Virus record (IMG/VR): IMGVR_UViG_3300048927_000740
Coordinates: 1 to 23,971 of that record
Source: a virus
Length of the DNA stretch: 23,971 nucleotides
Reading direction: 5' to 3' (one strand)
The notes under the pieces were generated by a model. That model did not search any database and was not told the origin of the DNA. It saw only the letters and a list, made by a program, of their open reading frames with translations. Every line of letters starts with the position of its first letter. Positions within the stretch are counted from its first letter, which is position 1. Both the position numbers and the translations under genes were made by a program. Below, one piece after another: positions 3,067-17,983 of the stretch.

Positions 3067-3155
3067 GGCAAGATAATGAAGCAGGGCAATTCAAGACACA
3101 AAACCATGTCGTATGGTGGTCTACTAACAAACACAATTATTATTTGGGTGAATGT
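3067..3155. promoter_or_regulatory. Divergent intergenic region between V and the cargo gene
   Basis: These 89 bp separate two divergent starts, so they should hold the late promoter for the V operon (PV in P2) and a promoter for the cargo gene. On the minus strand, TGT and ACC stand 12 bp apart around 3119-3136. This is close to, but not a full match for, the TGT-N12-ACA half-site spacing of Ogr/Delta-activated late promoters. A short hairpin (ACCAT, five-base loop, ATGGT at 3103-3117) is also visible. For the cargo gene, GGTGA at 3147-3151 serves the ATG at 3156. I could not assign a convincing -35/-10 pair. Confidence 0.35.
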
Positions 3156-4223
3156 ATGCAGGATTTTTTTACGTTAAGTAATGTTCAGAATGTGATTGCT
3201 TATTATCGCAATATGATCAATAACCTTACGCCAGAAAACTCTTTTGAAAAAAACAGGAATGAACATATTTCTACAATGCTTGCCTCATTTTCAAGAAATG
3301 CCCAACAGTGGGATCAAAAGGTACAAGTTAACATTAATTATATAGGTGATAGGTTTTATAATGAATTGCAAGCTAAAGAGTCTAACAAAGATTCTGTAGA
3401 TGAGATTTTTTCCAGCTGCTTTAGGTTTTTACTTGAATACTATATAAATATGCCAGGCGAACTTGGCCACCCTTTAGGTTCTATCAAGTCATTTGCCATA
3501 CATCACCTTGATGATTTTACTGATTCTACGAAGAATCAAATCGAATATGCCCTAAGAGAGATGCCAATAAACATCCTTAAAGACATTTTGCATAATGCAG
3601 ACTTTAAAGCTCTAAGAGAATTGCCGTCAATAACAAAACATACTGAAACACTAAAAGAACAGTGGAATACTGAGCTGAAAGACAGGATTGAAAAAATAGA
3701 TGACCTAAAAGAAACCCTGAAAGAATATGAGCATGCTTTCAATTTCGCAGGTTTATTCAAGGGTTTTCTCGACTTAGGCAATAGTAAGAAAAAAGAAGCT
3801 CGCTCAGGAAAAGTACTCCTTGTAGGTTTAGCAATGATGGTTCCAGTGCCTATCATATTTGAAACTGCGTACTTTGTTTTTAGAGACGTAACGTTCGCCT
3901 CAGCTTGGGATTTGATTAAGATATTACCCGCTGCATCAATGTCTTTGTTGTTAATTTACTTCTTTCGAATATCTCTTAGGAATTATAATTCCTTAAAGGC
4001 CCAACTATTGCAAATTGAGTTAAGAAAAACCCTTTGTCAGTTCATACAAAGCTATGCTGATTACAGCAAAGAAATTAAAAGCAAAGAGCATAACCCGCTT
4101 GATAAATTCGAAGACGTTATATTTTCGAATATCATGACTGCTGAAGAGAAAATACCATCGACATTTGATGGCGTTGATCAGCTTGCTAACATGATTAAAG
4201 CCATTAAGGGATCGAAGGGCTAA
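3156..4223 (+). CDS. Unrecognised cargo (moron) protein with two central membrane helices
   Basis: I do not recognise this 355-residue protein. Residues 1-160 look soluble and helical, with a striking GELGHPLGS stretch. Residues about 165-198 are rich in charged heptad-like sequence (probable coiled coil). Two hydrophobic segments at about 219-243 and 253-275 look like a transmembrane hairpin, and a charged helical tail follows. The ATG at 3156 is preferred over an in-frame TTG at 3144, because GGTGA lies about five bases before it. The DNA is much more AT-rich than the flanking V and S genes, and the gene runs against both. Its stop codon overlaps the stop of S. This is the profile of a horizontally acquired accessory gene expressed from the prophage. 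An anti-phage or superinfection-exclusion role is a guess from position and topology only. Confidence 0.85.
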   Translation: MQDFFTLSNVQNVIAYYRNMINNLTPENSFEKNRNEHISTMLASFSRNAQQWDQKVQVNINYIGDRFYNELQAKESNKDSVDEIFSSCFRFLLEYYINMPGELGHPLGSIKSFAIHHLDDFTDSTKNQIEYALREMPINILKDILHNADFKALRELPSITKHTETLKEQWNTELKDRIEKIDDLKETLKEYEHAFNFAGLFKGFLDLGNSKKKEARSGKVLLVGLAMMVPVPIIFETAYFVFRDVTFASAWDLIKILPAASMSLLLIYFFRISLRNYNSLKAQLLQIELRKTLCQFIQSYADYSKEIKSKEHNPLDKFEDVIFSNIMTAEEKIPSTFDGVDQLANMIKAIKGSKG

Positions 4224-8943: not shown

Positions 8944-9792
8944 TTAGCAGTCGGTCTGCGCGCCGGACTTCGGATCGCTGCCGGTTGCCGCCGGGCGGCG
9001 GGTAAAACTGCCGTCGGTCTGCGAAAGCTGGCCCTGCAGCGCAGCGAAAGCGGCGCGGTCTTCCCCGGCCTGCTGCTCGATAGCCTCCAGACGTGCGGTG
9101 ACGGTTTGCTCCAGCGCTGAAAGTTTCTGCGTCTGGCTCTCCGCGTTCAGCTGCACCTGCTCAGCAACGGCGGTTACCGCCGCGCCGACGTCGGCGAACT
9201 GCTCACCATCGGTTTTCTTTTTGGCAGAGAACATCGCCGAGATGCGCGCCAGCAGGGACGGTGACGGCTCGGCCACTTCCTCAAACTCGATCACGGTTTC
9301 TTCAGCGGCGCTGAAAAGGTTGTCTTTATGCTGCTTGCGGGATTCCAGCGGGTTAACGGTCGCCGAGGCGCTGAAGCTCAGGATTTCCGTGCCGAGGCTG
9401 GCAGGATTGTCGGTAACAGCCAGGCCGATCAGATATGCCTCACCGGTATCCGCGAACTTGGGGTTGTACTGAATTGACGTATAGATTTTCTGGCGTGCCT
9501 TGGTCATAGCAACCAGCTCATCTGTTGGATCTATATCCCCGAACAGCGCCAGCTTGCCTTTTAGCGGCCCGTCAGCAATTTCTTCAGCTGACAGCGCCAC
9601 CACGTCACCAAAACGACGGAATGGGCTGTCAGGCGTGATGCCTTTGATGTGCTCAAGGTCAATTCGCGCCCCGTACATCGTTGGATCATAGTTTTTCGCC
9701 ATTTGCGCAATGTGCTCACGCGGAATTGCGCGGCCGTCTGTAGTTGCGCCTTCAACTGCGATACGAAAACGCTTTGATTTGATTGCTGCCAT
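8944..9792 (-). CDS. O: Capsid scaffold and protease gpO
   Basis: The 282-residue product (284 in P2) combines an N-terminal serine protease with a C-terminal scaffold. D19, H48 and S106 fall at the positions of the P2 gpO triad (D19, H48, S107 as I recall it). The C-terminal half, about residues 190-265, is alanine/glutamine-rich and likely coiled coil, as expected for the scaffold that directs gpN assembly. GGAG stands eight bases before the ATG. O diverges from P across 144 bp that must contain two late promoters. Confidence 0.95.
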   Translation of the reverse strand: MAAIKSKRFRIAVEGATTDGRAIPREHIAQMAKNYDPTMYGARIDLEHIKGITPDSPFRRFGDVVALSAEEIADGPLKGKLALFGDIDPTDELVAMTKARQKIYTSIQYNPKFADTGEAYLIGLAVTDNPASLGTEILSFSASATVNPLESRKQHKDNLFSAAEETVIEFEEVAEPSPSLLARISAMFSAKKKTDGEQFADVGAAVTAVAEQVQLNAESQTQKLSALEQTVTARLEAIEQQAGEDRAAFAALQGQLSQTDGSFTRRPAATGSDPKSGAQTDC

Positions 9793-9936: not shown

Positions 9937-11700
9937 ATGAACATGACACCGACAACCATCATCAGCGATCCGCGCCGTCAGGCCGCGCTGCTTTACTGGC
10001 AGGGTTATTCCGTGCGCCAGATTGCGGAGACGCTCGGACAGAAAACGCCAACCGTGCAGAGCTGGAAGCTGCGTGACGCGTGGGACAACGTTGCGCCCAT
10101 CAGTCGCGTGGAATCCAGCATGGAAGCCCGGCTGATTCAGCTCATCATGAAAGAGGTAAAGGGGAATGGTGATTACAAAGAGATAGACGCGCTCGGCCGT
10201 CAGATTGAGCGCCTTGCCCGCGTTGAGCGCTACCGCAGCAGCGGCAACGAGGCCGACTTAAACCCCAACGTGCGCAACCGCAACAAAGGCGAGCGCCAGC
10301 CGGTTGTTAAAAATGAGTTCAGCGAGGAACAGGTAGACAAGCTGACCGGCGTGTTTATGGATAACTGCTTTGAGTATCAGCTCAACTGGCACCGCGCCGG
10401 GCTGACTCACCGCATCCGCAATATCCTGAAGTCCCGCCAGATTGGCGCTACGTTCTACTTTGCCCGCGAGGCGCTGATCGACGCGCTGACCACCGGCCGC
10501 AACCAGATTTTTCTTTCGGCCAGCAAGGCGCAGGCGCACGTTTTTAAAAACTATATCCTCGACTTTGCCCGCCAGGCTGACGTTGACCTGAAAGGCGATC
10601 CCATCGTACTGCCGAACGGCGCGCGCCTGATATTCCTCGGCACCAATGTGCGCACCGCGCAGAGCTATACCGGCAACCTGTACCTGGATGAGTATTTCTG
10701 GATCCCGAAATTCCAGGAGCTGCGCAAGGTTGCCAGCGGCATGTCGCTGCACAAGAAATGGCGCACGACGTACTTTTCCACGCCGTCGGCCCTGTCACAC
10801 AGCGCTTATCCGTTCTGGTCAGGTGAGCTGTTTAACAAGGGGCGGCGCAACAGAGATGATCGCATCGAGATAGACCTGTCGCATTCACACCTGGCGAAAG
10901 GCGCGCTGTGCGGTGACGGCCAGTGGCGGCAGATCGTGACGGTTGAGGATGCGCTGACCGGCGGCTGCAACCTGTTCGACATTGAGCAACTGCAGCTTGA
11001 ATACAGCCCGGCGGAATATCAGAACCTGCTGATGTGTGATTTTGTCGATGATGAGGCGAGCGTGTTCCCGTTTGCCGAGCTGCAGAGCTGCATGATCGAC
11101 AGCCTGGAAGAGTGGGAAGATTTTAACCCGTACCTGCCGCGCCCGTTTGCATACCGGCCGGTCTGGATCGGTTATGACCCGTCGCACACCGGCGACAGCG
11201 CAGGCTGTGCGGTAATCGCGCCGCCGCTCGTTGCGGGCGGTAAGTTCCGCGTGCTGGAGCGTCACCAGTGGCGGGGTATGGACTTTGCCGCACAGGCGAA
11301 ATCTATCGAGGACTTAACGAAAAAATACACCGTGGAATATATCGGCGTTGATGCGACCGGCATCGGCCAGGGTGTTTACCAGCTGGTACGCCAGTTTTAC
11401 CCGGCCGCGCGTGAAATCAAATACTCGCCGGAAGTGAAAACGGTAATGGTACTGAAGGCAAAAGACACGATCAGCAGCGGGCGCCTTGAGTATGACGCCG
11501 GGGCCACGGATATCACGCAGTCGTTTATGGCTATTCGCAAAACCATGACGGCCAGCGGCAACCGCTCAACCTATGAGGCGAGCCGCAGCGAAGAAGCCAG
11601 CCATGCTGACGTCGCCTGGGCAATCATGCACGCCCTGTTAAACGAACCGCTTACCGCAGCCAGCGGCGGCGCTAACCCTTCTATTCTGGAATTTTACTGA
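9937..11700 (+). CDS. P: Terminase large (ATPase/nuclease) subunit gpP
   Basis: The product is 587 residues from the ATG at 9937 (P2 gpP 590). Residues about 12-45 hold an HTH (YSVRQIAETLGQKTPTVQSW). The ATPase part has a Walker A-like K165-SRQIGAT and Walker B LYLDEYF with D251/E252. The C-terminal nuclease part shows GYDPSHTGDSAG with D414, YIGVDATGIGQ with D472 and HADVAW with D558, the acidic residues expected for an RNase H-like nuclease. It drives DNA packaging into gpN procapsids through the gpQ portal. The open frame extends upstream, but only this start gives the family's normal N-terminus. P and Q overlap by one base (TGATG). Confidence 0.95.
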   Translation: MNMTPTTIISDPRRQAALLYWQGYSVRQIAETLGQKTPTVQSWKLRDAWDNVAPISRVESSMEARLIQLIMKEVKGNGDYKEIDALGRQIERLARVERYRSSGNEADLNPNVRNRNKGERQPVVKNEFSEEQVDKLTGVFMDNCFEYQLNWHRAGLTHRIRNILKSRQIGATFYFAREALIDALTTGRNQIFLSASKAQAHVFKNYILDFARQADVDLKGDPIVLPNGARLIFLGTNVRTAQSYTGNLYLDEYFWIPKFQELRKVASGMSLHKKWRTTYFSTPSALSHSAYPFWSGELFNKGRRNRDDRIEIDLSHSHLAKGALCGDGQWRQIVTVEDALTGGCNLFDIEQLQLEYSPAEYQNLLMCDFVDDEASVFPFAELQSCMIDSLEEWEDFNPYLPRPFAYRPVWIGYDPSHTGDSAGCAVIAPPLVAGGKFRVLERHQWRGMDFAAQAKSIEDLTKKYTVEYIGVDATGIGQGVYQLVRQFYPAAREIKYSPEVKTVMVLKAKDTISSGRLEYDAGATDITQSFMAIRKTMTASGNRSTYEASRSEEASHADVAWAIMHALLNEPLTAASGGANPSILEFY

Positions 11701-12734
11701 TGAGCAAACGCAGAGGCCGCAAGGCCCACACCGCCACCACACAGCCGGTACAGGCAACCGCACCGCAGCAGCACGCCGAGGCATTTACCTTTGGCGATCC
11801 GACGCCGGTCATGGATAAGCGCGACATTCTGGATTACGCCGAGTGCATCGGTAACGGGCGCTGGTTTGAGCCGCCTGTCAGCTTTAGCGGGCTGGCTAAG
11901 AGCCTGCGCTCGGCCGTGCATCACAGCTCGCCGATTTACGTGAAGCGCAACATTCTGGCCTCGACCTTTATCCCGCACCCGATGATGAGTCAGCAGGAGT
12001 TCAGCAAGTTTGCGCTTGATTATCTGGTCTTCGGCAACGCCTTCGCCGAGCTGCGCCGTAACAGCCTGGGTAAACCGCTGCGCCTTGAAACCACCCCGGC
12101 CAAATTCACCCGCAGGGGTGTGAAGGACGGCGTTTACTGGTTTGTGAATGACTGGAAAGAGCCGCATGAGTTTTCGGCCGGCAGCGTGTTTCACCTGCTG
12201 GAGCCGGATATCAATCAGGAGCTTTACGGCCTGCCGGAATACCTCAGCGCGCTCAATTCGGCCTGGCTGAATGAGGCGGCGACGCTGTTCCGCCGCAAGT
12301 ATTATCAGAACGGCGCGCACGCCGGTTACATTCTCTACATGACCGATGCGGCGCAAAGCAGCAGCGACGTTGACCGGATGCGACAGGCGATGCGCGACAC
12401 GAAAGGGCTGGGTAACTTCCGCAACCTGTTTATGTACGCGCCGAACGGAAAGCCGGACGGGATCAAGATTCTGCCGCTTAGTGAAGTGGCGACGAAAGAC
12501 GATTTCTTTAATATCAAGAAAGCCAGCCGTGACGACCTCTTAAGCGCGCACCGCGTGCCGCCGCAGATGATGGGGATTATCCCTGACAACTCCGGCGGAT
12601 TTGGGGACGCGGTGAAAGCGTCTCAGGTATTCGTGCGTAACGAACTGACACCGCTGCAGCAACGAATGAAAGAGATCAACGATTGGATTGGAATTAAGGT
12701 AATTGATTTCAAAAATTACCAACTTGAGCTGTAA
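11700..12734 (+). CDS. Q: Portal protein gpQ, possibly with a replaced 3' end
   Basis: The 344-residue product (same length as P2 gpQ) is the connector through which DNA enters the head. It shows the family stretches VMDKRDILDYAECIGNGRWF, YLVFGNAFAELRRN and SAHRVPPQMMGIIPDNSGGF. The last 20 or so codons (INDWIGIKVIDFKNYQLEL) are in AT-rich DNA unlike the rest of the gene. A second, different version of the same protein end is found 1.8 kb downstream, after the cargo gene (14546-14602). The simplest reading is that a cargo cassette recombined into Q, supplying a new 3' end and pushing the old one away. Confidence 0.95.
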   Translation: MSKRRGRKAHTATTQPVQATAPQQHAEAFTFGDPTPVMDKRDILDYAECIGNGRWFEPPVSFSGLAKSLRSAVHHSSPIYVKRNILASTFIPHPMMSQQEFSKFALDYLVFGNAFAELRRNSLGKPLRLETTPAKFTRRGVKDGVYWFVNDWKEPHEFSAGSVFHLLEPDINQELYGLPEYLSALNSAWLNEAATLFRRKYYQNGAHAGYILYMTDAAQSSSDVDRMRQAMRDTKGLGNFRNLFMYAPNGKPDGIKILPLSEVATKDDFFNIKKASRDDLLSAHRVPPQMMGIIPDNSGGFGDAVKASQVFVRNELTPLQQRMKEINDWIGIKVIDFKNYQLEL

Positions 12735-12763: not shown

Positions 12764-12812
12764 GGACTCCATATGAAAAGATAAAGAAAAAACTTTCAAT
12801 GTGGAGTCTTAA
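12764..12812 (+). promoter_or_regulatory. Hairpin covering the ribosome binding site of the cargo gene
   Basis: GACTCCATAT (12765-12774) pairs with ATGTGGAGTC (12799-12808), ten pairs with one G-U wobble. Further pairing of GAAA (12775-12778) with TTTC (12794-12797) is possible inside the loop. The right arm contains GTGGAG, the only Shine-Dalgarno sequence for the TTG start at 12813. The messenger would thus hide its own ribosome binding site. This could limit translation of a harmful product or prevent translation from read-through transcripts of P-Q. I infer the function; the pairing is seen directly. Confidence 0.6.
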
Positions 12813-14420
12813 TTGAATATTCAAAAAGGTACCGTATGGCATACATACACAATGCAGTGCCCAAATATAAAATTATCCAGAAGGATGATCAAGGATGTAA
12901 TGCATAGCCGAATTTTTCTTAGTGCATTCGATTACACTAAAAACCTTTACTATTTTGACGGGGATAGACTAAAGAAAAGCCGCTTAGATTTTCAATTTAA
13001 CACAGACGTAACAGGCTTAAAAGTAACTGGCTTACCGTTTGATAAAAAACACGCAGCATGTGATTTTACGCTTTACTCCACTCACATACTAATCAACAAA
13101 ATATTATCACAAAACAAAATCTTGCAAGCTGACGGAACTTTTTATAGTGATTATGTATTCTTCGCTTTAAAACCATTTTTCTTAGGGTCTGATGACAATC
13201 AAAAAATCATAATTCCAGTGATTAGCATATACGAAAATGGCATAGCTCAAGTAAACTTCATTGATTTAAATGACTATTCCAATACACTCAATGAGTTCAT
13301 TCGAGACAATGTTAATTATCCATTTACAAGACCACACTCCATAATCTGCCCAATTGAATACGCAGTAACATACCTTAGCTTTGACAATAAAATCTCGCCC
13401 CTATTTAGGCGATTATTAGATTATAGATACTACCGAGAAGTAAAACGAACCTTATTAAATAATTCCGAACCACTTGAATATGGAGAGCGATCCCTTAATG
13501 GGAACTATGTTGATTACATGAAATTTAGCAACGCCAAGCATGGTCTAGGTGACATTGCCAGAACCATAGTGGCCTTAGTTTACTCTCATGTTATTAAAAT
13601 AAGTCCTCGCGAGTTCCTTTTAGGCCTTGACGTTAATAAATATTATTCAGGATGGCAAGGCAAACCAAATATATTCATTCTTGAACACGACAATCAGAAA
13701 ACAAAATCATCTTTAAACTGGCTGGAAAATAAAAGAATGATAAATGCATTACTATCTAAGACTATGGGCCTCTATCAAGACAACATCCCACTACGTTATG
13801 AAGATTATCGTATGTTTGATGATTTCAACTACTTTTCTGCGCAAGGCGTTTCTTTGAGCATGCTAACCAGCAAATCCCTGAAACAACTCAACTTAAGTAG
13901 CGGCTTTACCGTTGATAATTTTAAGTGGGATAACTTAGTAAAAAGTGATTTGCGTGAAATCGTCAGCTTCTTCTATGAAGGTACAATCTATAAAATAAAC
14001 AATATAAATAAAAATATTGAGCTGGCGCAGATTAAAAAAGAAATATTCGAATTTGAGGAATGGTTACGACAAACGTCACGCAGATCGGGAGAGATACACA
14101 ACTATGCCTTATCATTGTTCGAACACAACGATATAAAACAAAGTCGAAAAAGCATTGATAGTTTAATTAAATCGAAAATGGAATTGATAAAAATACAGGA
14201 AACCGAGTCCAGTGATAAAGCCAACAACAATTTAACTCTCATATTTGGCTTAATTGCCACAACTTCAATCTCACCCATTTTAGTAAAGCCCGCGTTTGAA
14301 TATTTCAAACTTGATGATTGCCTAAGGGGAACAGTATTCTACGATTTCATTGATGCCATATACTTTGTGATCTCTATCACTTTAGTATATTTATTAATCA
14401 AAATTCTTAACAAAAAATGA
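12813..14420 (+). CDS. Unrecognised cargo protein with two C-terminal membrane helices; candidate phage defence gene
   Basis: I do not recognise this 535-residue protein. About 390 residues look like a mixed soluble domain (FDYTKNLYYFDGDRLKKS near the start, SLNWLENKRMINALLSKT in the middle). A charged helical stretch follows (about 393-470, part probably coiled coil). Two hydrophobic segments at about 474-492 and 510-531 end with basic LNKK. The protein would be anchored in the inner membrane with most of its mass in the cytoplasm. The TTG at 12813 is chosen because GTGGAG is six bases upstream; the next ATG (12852) has no binding site. The DNA is strongly AT-rich and sits between Q and the cos/A region. 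P2-like phages keep variable anti-phage genes there (old and tin of P2 lie in this Q-A interval). Defence is an inference from place and topology. Confidence 0.85.
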   Translation: MNIQKGTVWHTYTMQCPNIKLSRRMIKDVMHSRIFLSAFDYTKNLYYFDGDRLKKSRLDFQFNTDVTGLKVTGLPFDKKHAACDFTLYSTHILINKILSQNKILQADGTFYSDYVFFALKPFFLGSDDNQKIIIPVISIYENGIAQVNFIDLNDYSNTLNEFIRDNVNYPFTRPHSIICPIEYAVTYLSFDNKISPLFRRLLDYRYYREVKRTLLNNSEPLEYGERSLNGNYVDYMKFSNAKHGLGDIARTIVALVYSHVIKISPREFLLGLDVNKYYSGWQGKPNIFILEHDNQKTKSSLNWLENKRMINALLSKTMGLYQDNIPLRYEDYRMFDDFNYFSAQGVSLSMLTSKSLKQLNLSSGFTVDNFKWDNLVKSDLREIVSFFYEGTIYKINNINKNIELAQIKKEIFEFEEWLRQTSRRSGEIHNYALSLFEHNDIKQSRKSIDSLIKSKMELIKIQETESSDKANNNLTLIFGLIATTSISPILVKPAFEYFKLDDCLRGTVFYDFIDAIYFVISITLVYLLIKILNKK

Positions 14421-14711
14421 TATTCATCTTTTTCCTTCGTGAACACCTTTATCATGAACACATCCCTTCTTATTAACCCGCTTCGTAGTAGTAAGTTCCA
14501 AACCAATGTGATGTTGCTTACGAAGATGTTAATGGATTATTTAATAACTGGATCGGTGTTGAGGCAATCCAATATGGCCCTTACATTCTGGATATTGAAT
14601 AGGGGGTCCTAAGGACGAAGTTCTGCCGCTACGGTGATTGCGAAAGTTCACGCCGTGGCTGGCAAGGCTAGCCCTCCCCCACCAAACGCCCCTTACTTCC
14701 TAGCCCGAACA
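14418..14711. other. Non-coding stretch between cargo gene and the cos region
   Basis: This roughly 290-bp stretch holds no intact gene. It starts with a weak AT-rich inverted repeat around the cargo stop (AAAAATGA and TCATCTTTTT, 14416-14437), which might act as a poor terminator. It continues with decayed-looking AT-rich sequence and the Q-end remnant described separately. It then returns to GC-rich phage DNA at about 14603, where a short palindrome GTCCTAAGGAC (14606-14616) stands. The right-hand junction of the cargo cassette therefore lies within or just left of 14546. Confidence 0.6.
14546..14602 (+). pseudogene. Displaced 3' end of portal gene Q
   Basis: In one plus frame this segment reads NWIGVEAIQYGPYILDIE followed by a TAG stop. 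It aligns with the end of the intact gpQ upstream (NDWIGIKVIDFKNYQLEL). It shares N-x-W-I-G... and the aromatic-x-x-Y-x-L pattern, and both end within one residue of the same place. The DNA of the two copies is too different for a recent duplication. It is best read as the original end of Q, cut off when the cargo cassette recombined in with its own Q end. Upstream of 14546 the similarity stops. Confidence 0.65.
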
Positions 14712-14924
14712 TCACCCCATCAGACGCGCTGGAACGCCTTTTGCGGGTTTTTTCCATTTCGCCACCTTCGCCCCGATGCAATGACGTGCGCCCGCCTCCG
14801 TGCGGTAGGCGCAGCCTGAACATACATGTTTGTACCCCTCGCGCGCAATGCTATCCCCGCCACGCCTGCCCGCTTTGTGCATCGCTTTTAATGCAGTTGC
14901 ATTCACATAGCAAAACAGCGCCAT
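14712..14924 (-). CDS. Possible small zinc-binding protein gene spanning cos
   Basis: A 70-codon frame starts MALFCYVNATALKAMHKAGR and continues with the cysteine-rich segment HVCSGCAYRTEAGARHC, then a basic tail. The CxxC...C pattern and codon use look like a real small protein rather than chance. However, no good ribosome binding site precedes the ATG at 14924. The cos cut falls inside it (around codons 20-26), so the gene would be whole only in the circular or integrated genome. I do not know a function. It could still be a chance frame imposed by conserved cos DNA. Confidence 0.45.
   Translation of the reverse strand: MALFCYVNATALKAMHKAGRRGGDSIAREGYKHVCSGCAYRTEAGARHCIGAKVAKWKKPAKGVPARLMG
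14733..14753 (+). terminator. Weak possible terminator of the P-Q transcript
   Basis: AACGC, a CTTTT loop and GCG followed by GG and six T (14748-14753) give a short imperfect stem with a T run on the plus strand. This is where transcription from P, Q and the cargo gene must stop before cos. The stem is only three clean pairs, so this is tentative. Confidence 0.28.
14848..14866 (-). other. cos: cos site (19-bp cohesive-end sequence)
   Basis: Read on the minus strand the 19 bp are GGCGTGGCGGGGATAGCAT. As I recall them, the cohesive ends of P2 (GGCGAGGCGGGGAAAGCAC) and 186 (GGCGTGGCGGGGAAAGCAT) differ from this at three and one positions. It lies between A and Q, where P2-like phages carry cos, and is the target of the M/P terminase. 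Its intact presence supports an integrated or circular form. It also fixes the virion genome ends: Q/P on one side, A on the other. Confidence 0.85.
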
Positions 14925-15694: not shown

Positions 15695-17983
15695 TCACGC
15701 CCTTTTTTTGCGGTTTTTTTCTGCTAATAGGTTAAATCGTTCTAATACGAAAGTCTGCTTTGGCTCCAGTATTGGGCGGGCCAGTTCTCCATTAGGTAAG
15801 CTGCGGAATACTTGACCAGCGATTTTCGTCTGCGTCCCTTTAATGAGACGCACGGCCAGCCCGCGACTGATCGTTTCACCGCTTAAATCTCTTACTTGGG
15901 CGATCAGGTTGTCGCATGCAGCTTCAGTTTTGTCCGACCGCCGCAGCTTCAGATGCCGCCTTTCTGGCCTTTCTGTCCTGATACGACTCAGAAGCTGCCG
16001 CCGTTCTTTTCTGTTCATGTTGTCCAGGTCGATTTTTTCGAAACTTTCCGGCGGGCTCGAATCCTCAGATCTCAAACCTCCCGTACAGTTATTGACAGAA
16101 CTCCGAGAGGACGCGGACGCGTCCTTAAATTCAAAAGCCAAATCAACGACACGTTTCGGGACAATCTTCCATTGCATCAGACGGGTTAAAATTGGCGTAT
16201 CGTCGCCAACTTCGGTTGCGTAAACACCCTTAATGCGCACGGTTTCCTCGCCGTACTCATTCACGTCTTCGCTTGCCTGATACCAGGTGCGCACGGCCAG
16301 ATCGTCGCGGCGTACGAACGGCCCACCCTGCGCGTTAACGTATCCGGCCCAGTCTCCTGCGTCGGCGGCGTCATGCGCGGCCGCAAACTCAACGCTCAGG
16401 CCATGCGCGGTCTCGCTGTCTGCCATGCGGCGCAGCTCGCGGTAAACCGTGACCGGCGCACCGCCCACAAACTGAAACTGCCGGATGTGCCAGCGTGCCG
16501 CCCAGGCAGAAACGGCCGAGGCTGTTTCTTTCAGATCTTTTCCGCTCTCGTCGTCTGTCTCACCATCCAGTGCATAACCATCAATATTTTTGGAAATGTA
16601 TTTAGCAACGTAACCCGTTGCGCTGCCTTTCTCTGGATCGATAGCCTCGGCGTGAAAACGTGCCTTACGGGCCTTGTCTGTCGTCAGCTCGCTGCTATCT
16701 TCCTGCCAGGCATAATCGCGCATAATTTCGCGCACGCGCTCAGCCTGCTCAGGGCGCATAAACATAAGCATGTGCCAGTGTGGGGTCGCATCATGATGAG
16801 GCTCAGCAACGCGGATCCCGAAGATGCGGATTTCTTCGCGGTGCAGCTTGGCGCGGATTTTCTGCCAGACGCTGCAGAGATAACGCTGCGTATCGGCCGG
16901 ACTGGCACCATTCCATTTGCGGTTACGATGCCCGGTTTTGATTGTGGCGTGATAGCGAGCCGGAGCTGTCAGCGTGTAGAACTCGCCTATAAAGCCCATT
17001 TCATTGCAGATGTTTTCGAAGCCACGAATGCGGGTCATCAGCTCGCAGCGGCGGATCGCCGGGTTGGCCACACTGCCGTCGTATTTCTCGATCAGGCTGA
17101 TGCGGTTGCCTTCCTCGTCTTCCAGCTCCATTCCCTTCAGAAATTCACGGGTGCGTCGCTTCTGCTCGCGCCACTCTGAAACGGTCATGCTGCTGGCGTA
17201 GGGGGTATGCTTCTTGCTGACGTTAGCCAGGGCGATTTGAAGATGTTCACGCCATGATGCAGCCACGCGGCGCAGTCGGCCCTTCCACCATTTTTCCGTC
17301 TGCATACGCATGATCGCCGGGGTAACTTCCTCCGGGTCAAACAGTCGTGACGTGACTTTATCCCATAATGGCGGCGTCTGGCTCAGCTCACGGGTGATGG
17401 TGGCGGCGGTCATGTAAACGCGGTGCGTATATTTATAATCTGACTCGTCGCTGGCCTGCGCGTGTGCCTGTATCAGCTCGGCGAGAATGAAATTAGCCAC
17501 ATCTCCGGCAAGCAAATCGACGTCGGCGCGAGCCATATCCGGCAGGCGGTTAAAGCGGCGCATCAGCTCCCAAAGAGTGCCGCCCGCGCTGGCCGCGCCT
17601 GCCTGGTTGGTGGCATTGCCTGCCAGCAGGTTAAACGTGCCGTGACTCATTTCACCGAGGCGATATTGAGCGTTAACGGTTTCAACGCGTGGCAATGTGC
17701 GCTCAACGAAGGTTTTCGTTAAGTACGCATTGGCACGATCAATACCCTGTGTTTTTTCTAACTCACTAACCCGGCGCTTTACATCAATCTGAATCAGCGT
17801 CGGCTGCTTTTCGAGTAGTTCCTGCGCACGTACTAAAGCCGCAATCATCTGACTGCGGCTGTGCATTTCCTCATAGGTTGGGTATGGGCTGGCAATGGCT
17901 TCCCGTGGAACATTCCACGGGTAAGCATAATTTTCTAGCATTTTACCGGCCCGCAACTGATGTCGGGACTTAGCCAGAGGCAT
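15695..17983 (-). CDS. A: Replication initiator protein A (HUH endonuclease, rolling circle)
   Basis: The 762-residue product (P2 gpA 761) nicks one strand at the phage origin and starts rolling-circle replication. The metal-binding HUH motif is H402-W-H404 (ATPHWHMLMF). The two catalytic tyrosines are Y458 and Y462 in GYVAKYISKN, matching Y450/Y454 of P2. The start at 17983 has AAGGTG upstream and overlaps the methylase gene by 49 bases; a second ATG at 17941 is possible but has a poor site. Residues about 615-645 form a serine-rich, poorly conserved-looking linker whose DNA carries the probable origin. No B-like helper gene is present, as in 186. Confidence 0.96.
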   Translation of the reverse strand: MPLAKSRHQLRAGKMLENYAYPWNVPREAIASPYPTYEEMHSRSQMIAALVRAQELLEKQPTLIQIDVKRRVSELEKTQGIDRANAYLTKTFVERTLPRVETVNAQYRLGEMSHGTFNLLAGNATNQAGAASAGGTLWELMRRFNRLPDMARADVDLLAGDVANFILAELIQAHAQASDESDYKYTHRVYMTAATITRELSQTPPLWDKVTSRLFDPEEVTPAIMRMQTEKWWKGRLRRVAASWREHLQIALANVSKKHTPYASSMTVSEWREQKRRTREFLKGMELEDEEGNRISLIEKYDGSVANPAIRRCELMTRIRGFENICNEMGFIGEFYTLTAPARYHATIKTGHRNRKWNGASPADTQRYLCSVWQKIRAKLHREEIRIFGIRVAEPHHDATPHWHMLMFMRPEQAERVREIMRDYAWQEDSSELTTDKARKARFHAEAIDPEKGSATGYVAKYISKNIDGYALDGETDDESGKDLKETASAVSAWAARWHIRQFQFVGGAPVTVYRELRRMADSETAHGLSVEFAAAHDAADAGDWAGYVNAQGGPFVRRDDLAVRTWYQASEDVNEYGEETVRIKGVYATEVGDDTPILTRLMQWKIVPKRVVDLAFEFKDASASSRSSVNNCTGGLRSEDSSPPESFEKIDLDNMNRKERRQLLSRIRTERPERRHLKLRRSDKTEAACDNLIAQVRDLSGETISRGLAVRLIKGTQTKIAGQVFRSLPNGELARPILEPKQTFVLERFNLLAEKNRKKRA
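16091..16124 (-). other. Probable origin of replication / nick region inside A
   Basis: On the minus strand the sequence CTCGGAGTTCTGTCAAT (16107-16091) is close to the P2 A-protein nick region as I remember it (CTCGGAGTCCTGTCAA), which also lies inside gene A. Next to it is a perfect ten-base palindrome GGACGCGTCC (16115-16124) with a repeated GCGTCC. Here the protein is only a serine-rich linker (SASSRSSVNN), so the DNA rather than the protein may be under constraint. The assignment rests on remembered similarity. Confidence 0.55.

Follow-up and report, generated by a model that had tools for sequence, protein, structure and literature searches.

The window analyzed here (the whole 23,971-nucleotide stretch of the IMG/VR virus record IMGVR_UViG_3300048927_000740) carries an AT-rich gene next to the cos site of a P2-like prophage, raising the question of what this gene encodes and whether it acts against other phages. 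The terminase gene P and then the portal gene Q lie upstream of it, and cos and the replication gene A lie on its other side:

11700 to 12734, plus strand: portal gene Q, the left boundary of the slot.
12813 to 14420, plus strand: cargo gene of the PHROG 24946 family, 535 aa, with a predicted soluble part (residues ~1-470) and predicted membrane helices (~473-497 and ~508-534).
14848 to 14866, no strand assigned: putative cos core ATGCTATCCCCGCCACGCC, by similarity to P2 cosL (L048:1-19), a P2-type 19-nt cohesive end.
15695 to 17983, minus strand: replication gene A, the right boundary of the Q-A interval.

In P2-like phages, this interval has been reported to be a hotspot of anti-phage genes, for which 169 systems were curated and some validated (PMC9122126), and the location of the gene between gpQ and gpA, adjoining cos, makes it well supported that the gene is cargo in this slot. 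The original prediction had placed it between Q and cos/A; this held and was refined to the pocket between Q and cos (Q end at 12734, cos at 14848-14866), in which the gene follows Q by 79 bp on the same strand. The original prediction also named P2 old and tin as occupants of the same interval, which is correct for the Q-A interval as a whole, but within it both genes are situated between cos and A, on the opposite side of cos from the window cargo and on the side where the E. coli homologues lie. Known defense genes, which were to be sought at this locus in relatives, were indeed found there, with an AbiU-family gene in the Q-A interval of Fels-2 (E 3e-112) and a type VI retron RT in that of Klebsiella phage ST147-VIM1phi7.1 (E 5e-104). 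Non-defense cargo, namely partition genes and a toxin gene, also occupies the hotspot (PMC9122126), and therefore the position raises the probability of a defense role without proving it. On balance, we lean modestly toward reading the gene as exchangeable lysogenic-conversion cargo of the prophage, most likely a single-gene anti-phage effector of the abortive-infection type.

The reading frame at 12813-14420 is intact over 535 codons and begins with TTG. This start codon was considered credible, as the N-terminus (LNIQKGTVWHTYT) aligned with the ATG-start residues of homologues (MQIKKGTVWHTYT) and a Shine-Dalgarno GGAG ended 6 nt 5' of the TTG. The claim that the gene has its own start signals was thus upheld for the Shine-Dalgarno sequence but not for a promoter, as the promoter scan returned signals at chance level (7 found versus 7.8 expected). 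The GC and GC3 contents were 34% and 35% in the cargo, versus 57% and 73% in neighboring Q, a foreign composition that bore out the earlier description of an AT-rich gene of 535 residues. In five allele pairs dN/dS was 0.13-0.18, indicating purifying selection and hence a selected protein gene. Together with a full-length match to PHROG 24946, a family of unknown function (E 1e-129), this selection ruled out a chance open reading frame. The start site is preceded by an inverted repeat:

12764 to 12809, plus strand: inverted repeat GGACTCCATAT/ATGTGGAGTCT, fold z -2.8, with the cargo Shine-Dalgarno in its 3' arm.

A hairpin formed here could possibly limit translation of the cargo. The stem was present in the window and in the near-identical L004, was less clear in the L006/L009 type, and was absent when the upstream DNA of the L013, L014, and L001 homologues was compared; it is therefore not claimed as a trait of the family.

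The protein gave no significant match in Pfam, NCBIfam, PADLOC, or PDB sequences, and membership in a PADLOC, Pfam, or NCBIfam family was rejected on these grounds. The earlier statement that no known defense family is recognizable agreed with PADLOC, which returned 0 matches for 10 family members at E values up to 10. Searches of PDB sequences with the single protein or with a profile yielded no solved-structure relative, none of three different family members matched any INPHARED phage, and two scans of GTDB genome contigs yielded 413 and 245 pattern matches, none of which was a confirmed relative. As far as these libraries show, the protein family is uncharacterized, while the hotspot and the kind of gene are already known.

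Relatives with 33-37% identity occurred in E. coli P2-like prophages and viral contigs, the E. coli version being matched in 13 of 5426 complete E. coli genomes. Wherever the context of an enterobacterial homologue could be read, the gene was found in a P2-like prophage between Q and A and ran in the same direction as Q and P2 old, as expected for cargo of this hotspot. The order was Q-cargo-cos-A in the window, L004, L013, and L014, and Q-cos-cargo-A in L001, L006-L012, L015, L016, L018, and L019; E. coli-type homologues thereby share the position (cos-A) and strand of P2 old, whereas the window gene is on the Q side. With copies on both sides of cos, the family has been gained or relocated at least twice. 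No partner gene was constant across the family loci, so sensing and action would have to reside in a single protein. A small gene of 113 aa is present between cargo and cos on the minus strand in L013 (3648-3989) and L014 (3235-3576), is absent from the window, and had no match in PADLOC. Among the distant relatives (18-24% identity), those in the Pseudomonas-type prophage contigs L020 and L021 adjoin an integrase or genes for lysis and tail, and one carried by an Azotobacter plasmid adjoins a RelB/YafQ toxin-antitoxin pair. The Pseudomonas-type homologue at L020:7932-9602 is beside an integrase at a dusA attachment site, which is likewise a position typical of cargo.

Comparison with close relatives indicated that the slot has been subject to exchange. 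Erwinia phage ENT90, 87% identical over P-Q, carries no cargo (its Q stops at 8929 in L033, with cos at 9129), and in L013 the flanks (Q and A) were 93% identical to the window, but the cargo protein was only 33% identical. The gene thus varied between relatives with the same flanks rather than being conserved in all of them with core-like composition, the pattern that the original prediction had named as contrary to its proposal. The difference between flanks and cargo in L013, along with the occupation of both cos sides, indicated that the family was exchanged repeatedly. Identity to ENT90 DNA ended in the window at 12680, inside the Q 3' end, and restarted at 14787, and two features lie within this range:

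12681 to 12734, plus strand: AT-rich replacement Q 3' end (WIGIKVIDFKNYQLEL), beginning where identity with ENT90 and L013 stops (~12680).
14480 to 14590, plus strand: displaced non-coding Q 3'-end remnant (..FNNWIGVEAIQYGPYILDIE*), downstream of the cargo.

As ENT90 identity stops within the Q 3' end, the window Q has a different, AT-rich tail. The segment at 14480-14590 scored 56 against Q C-termini, while other loci scored 29-40, except the near-identical L004. The simplest reading would be that a cassette with its own Q end and the cargo recombined into Q, and that the older Q end stayed behind. The displaced Q end and the use of both cos sides suggest a mode of swapping in which the incoming cassette supplies a Q end of its own to replace the resident one.

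The 79-bp distance from Q on the same strand could also be expected of a late gene that is transcribed together with P and Q and serves virion assembly or lysis. We consider this very improbable, as E. coli-type homologues lie beyond cos, ENT90 has none, and the composition is sharply different. The structure match to a virion or lysis protein that would have spoken for such a role was not what the searches returned; there was no match to a virion or lysis family or fold, and the best fold match, below threshold, was CorA. A virion or lysis protein was thus largely refuted.

Not all copies of the gene are intact. Single-base length changes in A-runs break the copies in L008, L018, and L019, some of which could be sequencing errors, while the L016 copy has a 5-bp deletion and an IS5 element is inserted in the Azotobacter copy. 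The broken homologues (frameshifts, 5-bp deletion, or IS5 in L016, L018, L019, L008, and L002) suggest frequent gene loss. With several copies frameshifted or IS-interrupted, the cargo gene is evidently often dispensable, and its repeated breakage fits a costly, conditional gene.

What the protein might do was approached through its conservation and predicted structure, in which two regions stood out:

13551 to 13931, plus strand: most conserved block (residues ~247-373), by invariant columns over 12 members.
14229 to 14414, plus strand: predicted C-terminal two-helix membrane hairpin (residues ~473-534), from hydrophobic segments and the AlphaFold model.

Two C-terminal hydrophobic segments (~473-491 and ~513-531) occupied the same relative place in 12 of the 12 members checked, in agreement with the two C-terminal membrane helices proposed originally. 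The AlphaFold2 model of the cargo protein, built with ten family members (mean pLDDT 80.8, pTM 0.78), predicted a soluble alpha/beta part, helices at 367-396 and 401-422, a 59-residue helix at 439-497 entering the membrane, and a helix at 508-534; it thus showed a long stalk helix followed by two membrane helices at the C-terminus. Across 12 members, the conserved block displayed the motifs D-x-A, W-x-GKP, H-x2-Q, N, D-x-R-x-F-x-D-x-N, and N-x3-D, and from these residues 247-373 would be the likeliest candidate for a ligand or active site.

With this model, no PDB entry reached E 0.001 in Foldseek. Ranks 1-4 were CorA chains (E 0.019-0.11), and for the model of a second member (pLDDT 76.3) the best CorA chain was at rank 21 (E 0.24). 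The CorA Mg2+ channels (PF01544) have a long stalk helix leading into a C-terminal membrane hairpin, as predicted for the cargo, and hhalign against eight CorA/ZntB proteins aligned the membrane hairpins in register, at a probability of 1.4%. However, the cargo has no match to the Pfam family, its second member matched more weakly, and the GMN motif, looked for as GMN or GVN where the first membrane helix ends, was absent in 12 of 12 members, the family having FG-(I/L/V)-x-A..(S/T)P at the CorA GMN position. Membership in CorA was accordingly not established despite the similar layout, and CorA-like is used here as a description of the predicted layout and as a lead. Structure searches with the two models gave no recognizable fold for the soluble domain, so its trigger and mechanism cannot be read from homology.

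The sub-threshold matches to CorA ion channels, taken with the partition and toxin genes that share the Q-A slot (PMC9122126), are compatible with lysogenic-conversion cargo outside defense, for example a transporter or channel in the membrane, a stress or persistence factor, or a host-fitness gene. We regard this as distinctly unlikely, as the gene's rapid turnover in a slot used for anti-phage genes, its rarity (13/5426), and its repeated inactivation better fit a conditional, costly function, and the CorA selectivity motif GMN is lacking. An anti-phage effector was favored because of the Q-A position, the exchange, the AbiU and retron RT in the interval of relatives, and the purifying selection, and also because distant relatives lie beside an integrase, lysis and tail genes, or a toxin-antitoxin pair. 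Against it stand the 10 members without a PADLOC match, the non-defense cargo of the hotspot, and the often-broken copies. From this evidence we consider a defense role of the cargo likely.

If the protein is such an effector, the C-terminal hairpin would anchor it in the inner membrane, leaving the soluble part of 470 residues in the cytoplasm. The central block (247-373) may recognize infection by another phage through a phage protein, a nucleotide signal, or a change in ions or energy, and the long stalk helix would relay the signal to the membrane hairpins. These could then assemble into a pore or channel, depolarizing the cell and stopping phage production. We infer defense, phage sensing, oligomerization, and membrane opening for a protein whose topology is predicted by software, and membrane damage in particular is a guess from that topology.

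The same position and topology would also fit superinfection exclusion without cell death, in which the protein either blocks entry of other phages' DNA at the inner membrane or acts as a membrane-tethered nuclease. Most known exclusion proteins acting at DNA entry are small, which argues against the first form. For the second, the polar invariants H292, Q295, D331, R333, D337, N339, and D373 could be catalytic, judging by conservation, and a nuclease bound to the membrane is known to cleave incoming phage DNA (PMC13190303); however, the cargo matches no nuclease family or fold. Exclusion or nuclease activity is thus an unlikely explanation next to the abortive-infection effector.

Among known systems, an abortive-infection effector of this layout would resemble the CRISPR-associated CorA of the B. 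fragilis type III-B system, a SAM-AMP-activated membrane effector proposed to form a pore in immunity, in which a C-terminal membrane domain is joined to a larger one with a fold of its own (PMC10600005). By its described layout it shares with the cargo a C-terminal two-helix membrane part and a larger N-terminal domain. The cargo differs in having no Cas10 or phosphodiesterase partner, no detectable CorA sequence similarity, and no GMN motif. A doubtful extension of the likeness would be that the cargo is a stand-alone, phage-encoded CorA-like immune pore, combining a new cytoplasmic sensor with inner-membrane opening, acting without a CRISPR or nucleotide-cyclase partner, and passed between P2-like prophages on either side of cos.

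By location, the closest counterparts are P2 old and tin and the other hotspot cargo, which are likewise exchangeable, AT-rich, and situated in the Q-A interval beside cos (PMC9122126). The cargo differs from the defense genes among these in matching no PADLOC family, and its anti-phage role is inferred. The AbiU of Fels-2, identified with PADLOC as a single-gene abortive-infection family protein, also lies between Q and cos, but on the opposite strand, and the cargo family had no match to the AbiU model. As the Q-A interval is already a source of validated anti-phage systems, the cargo represents a conserved full-length family there with a domain matching nothing known. If it defends, a membrane effector encoded by one gene and equipped with a new sensor would be added to them.

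A second AT-rich gene (35% GC) was observed in the window at 3144-4223 on the plus strand, encoding 359 aa with a central hydrophobic segment and assigned to PHROG 9373 (function unknown). It faces the tail genes in the S-V slot, where P2 carries the nonessential orf30, and gave a weak PADLOC match to PDC-S26 (E 2.6e-4).
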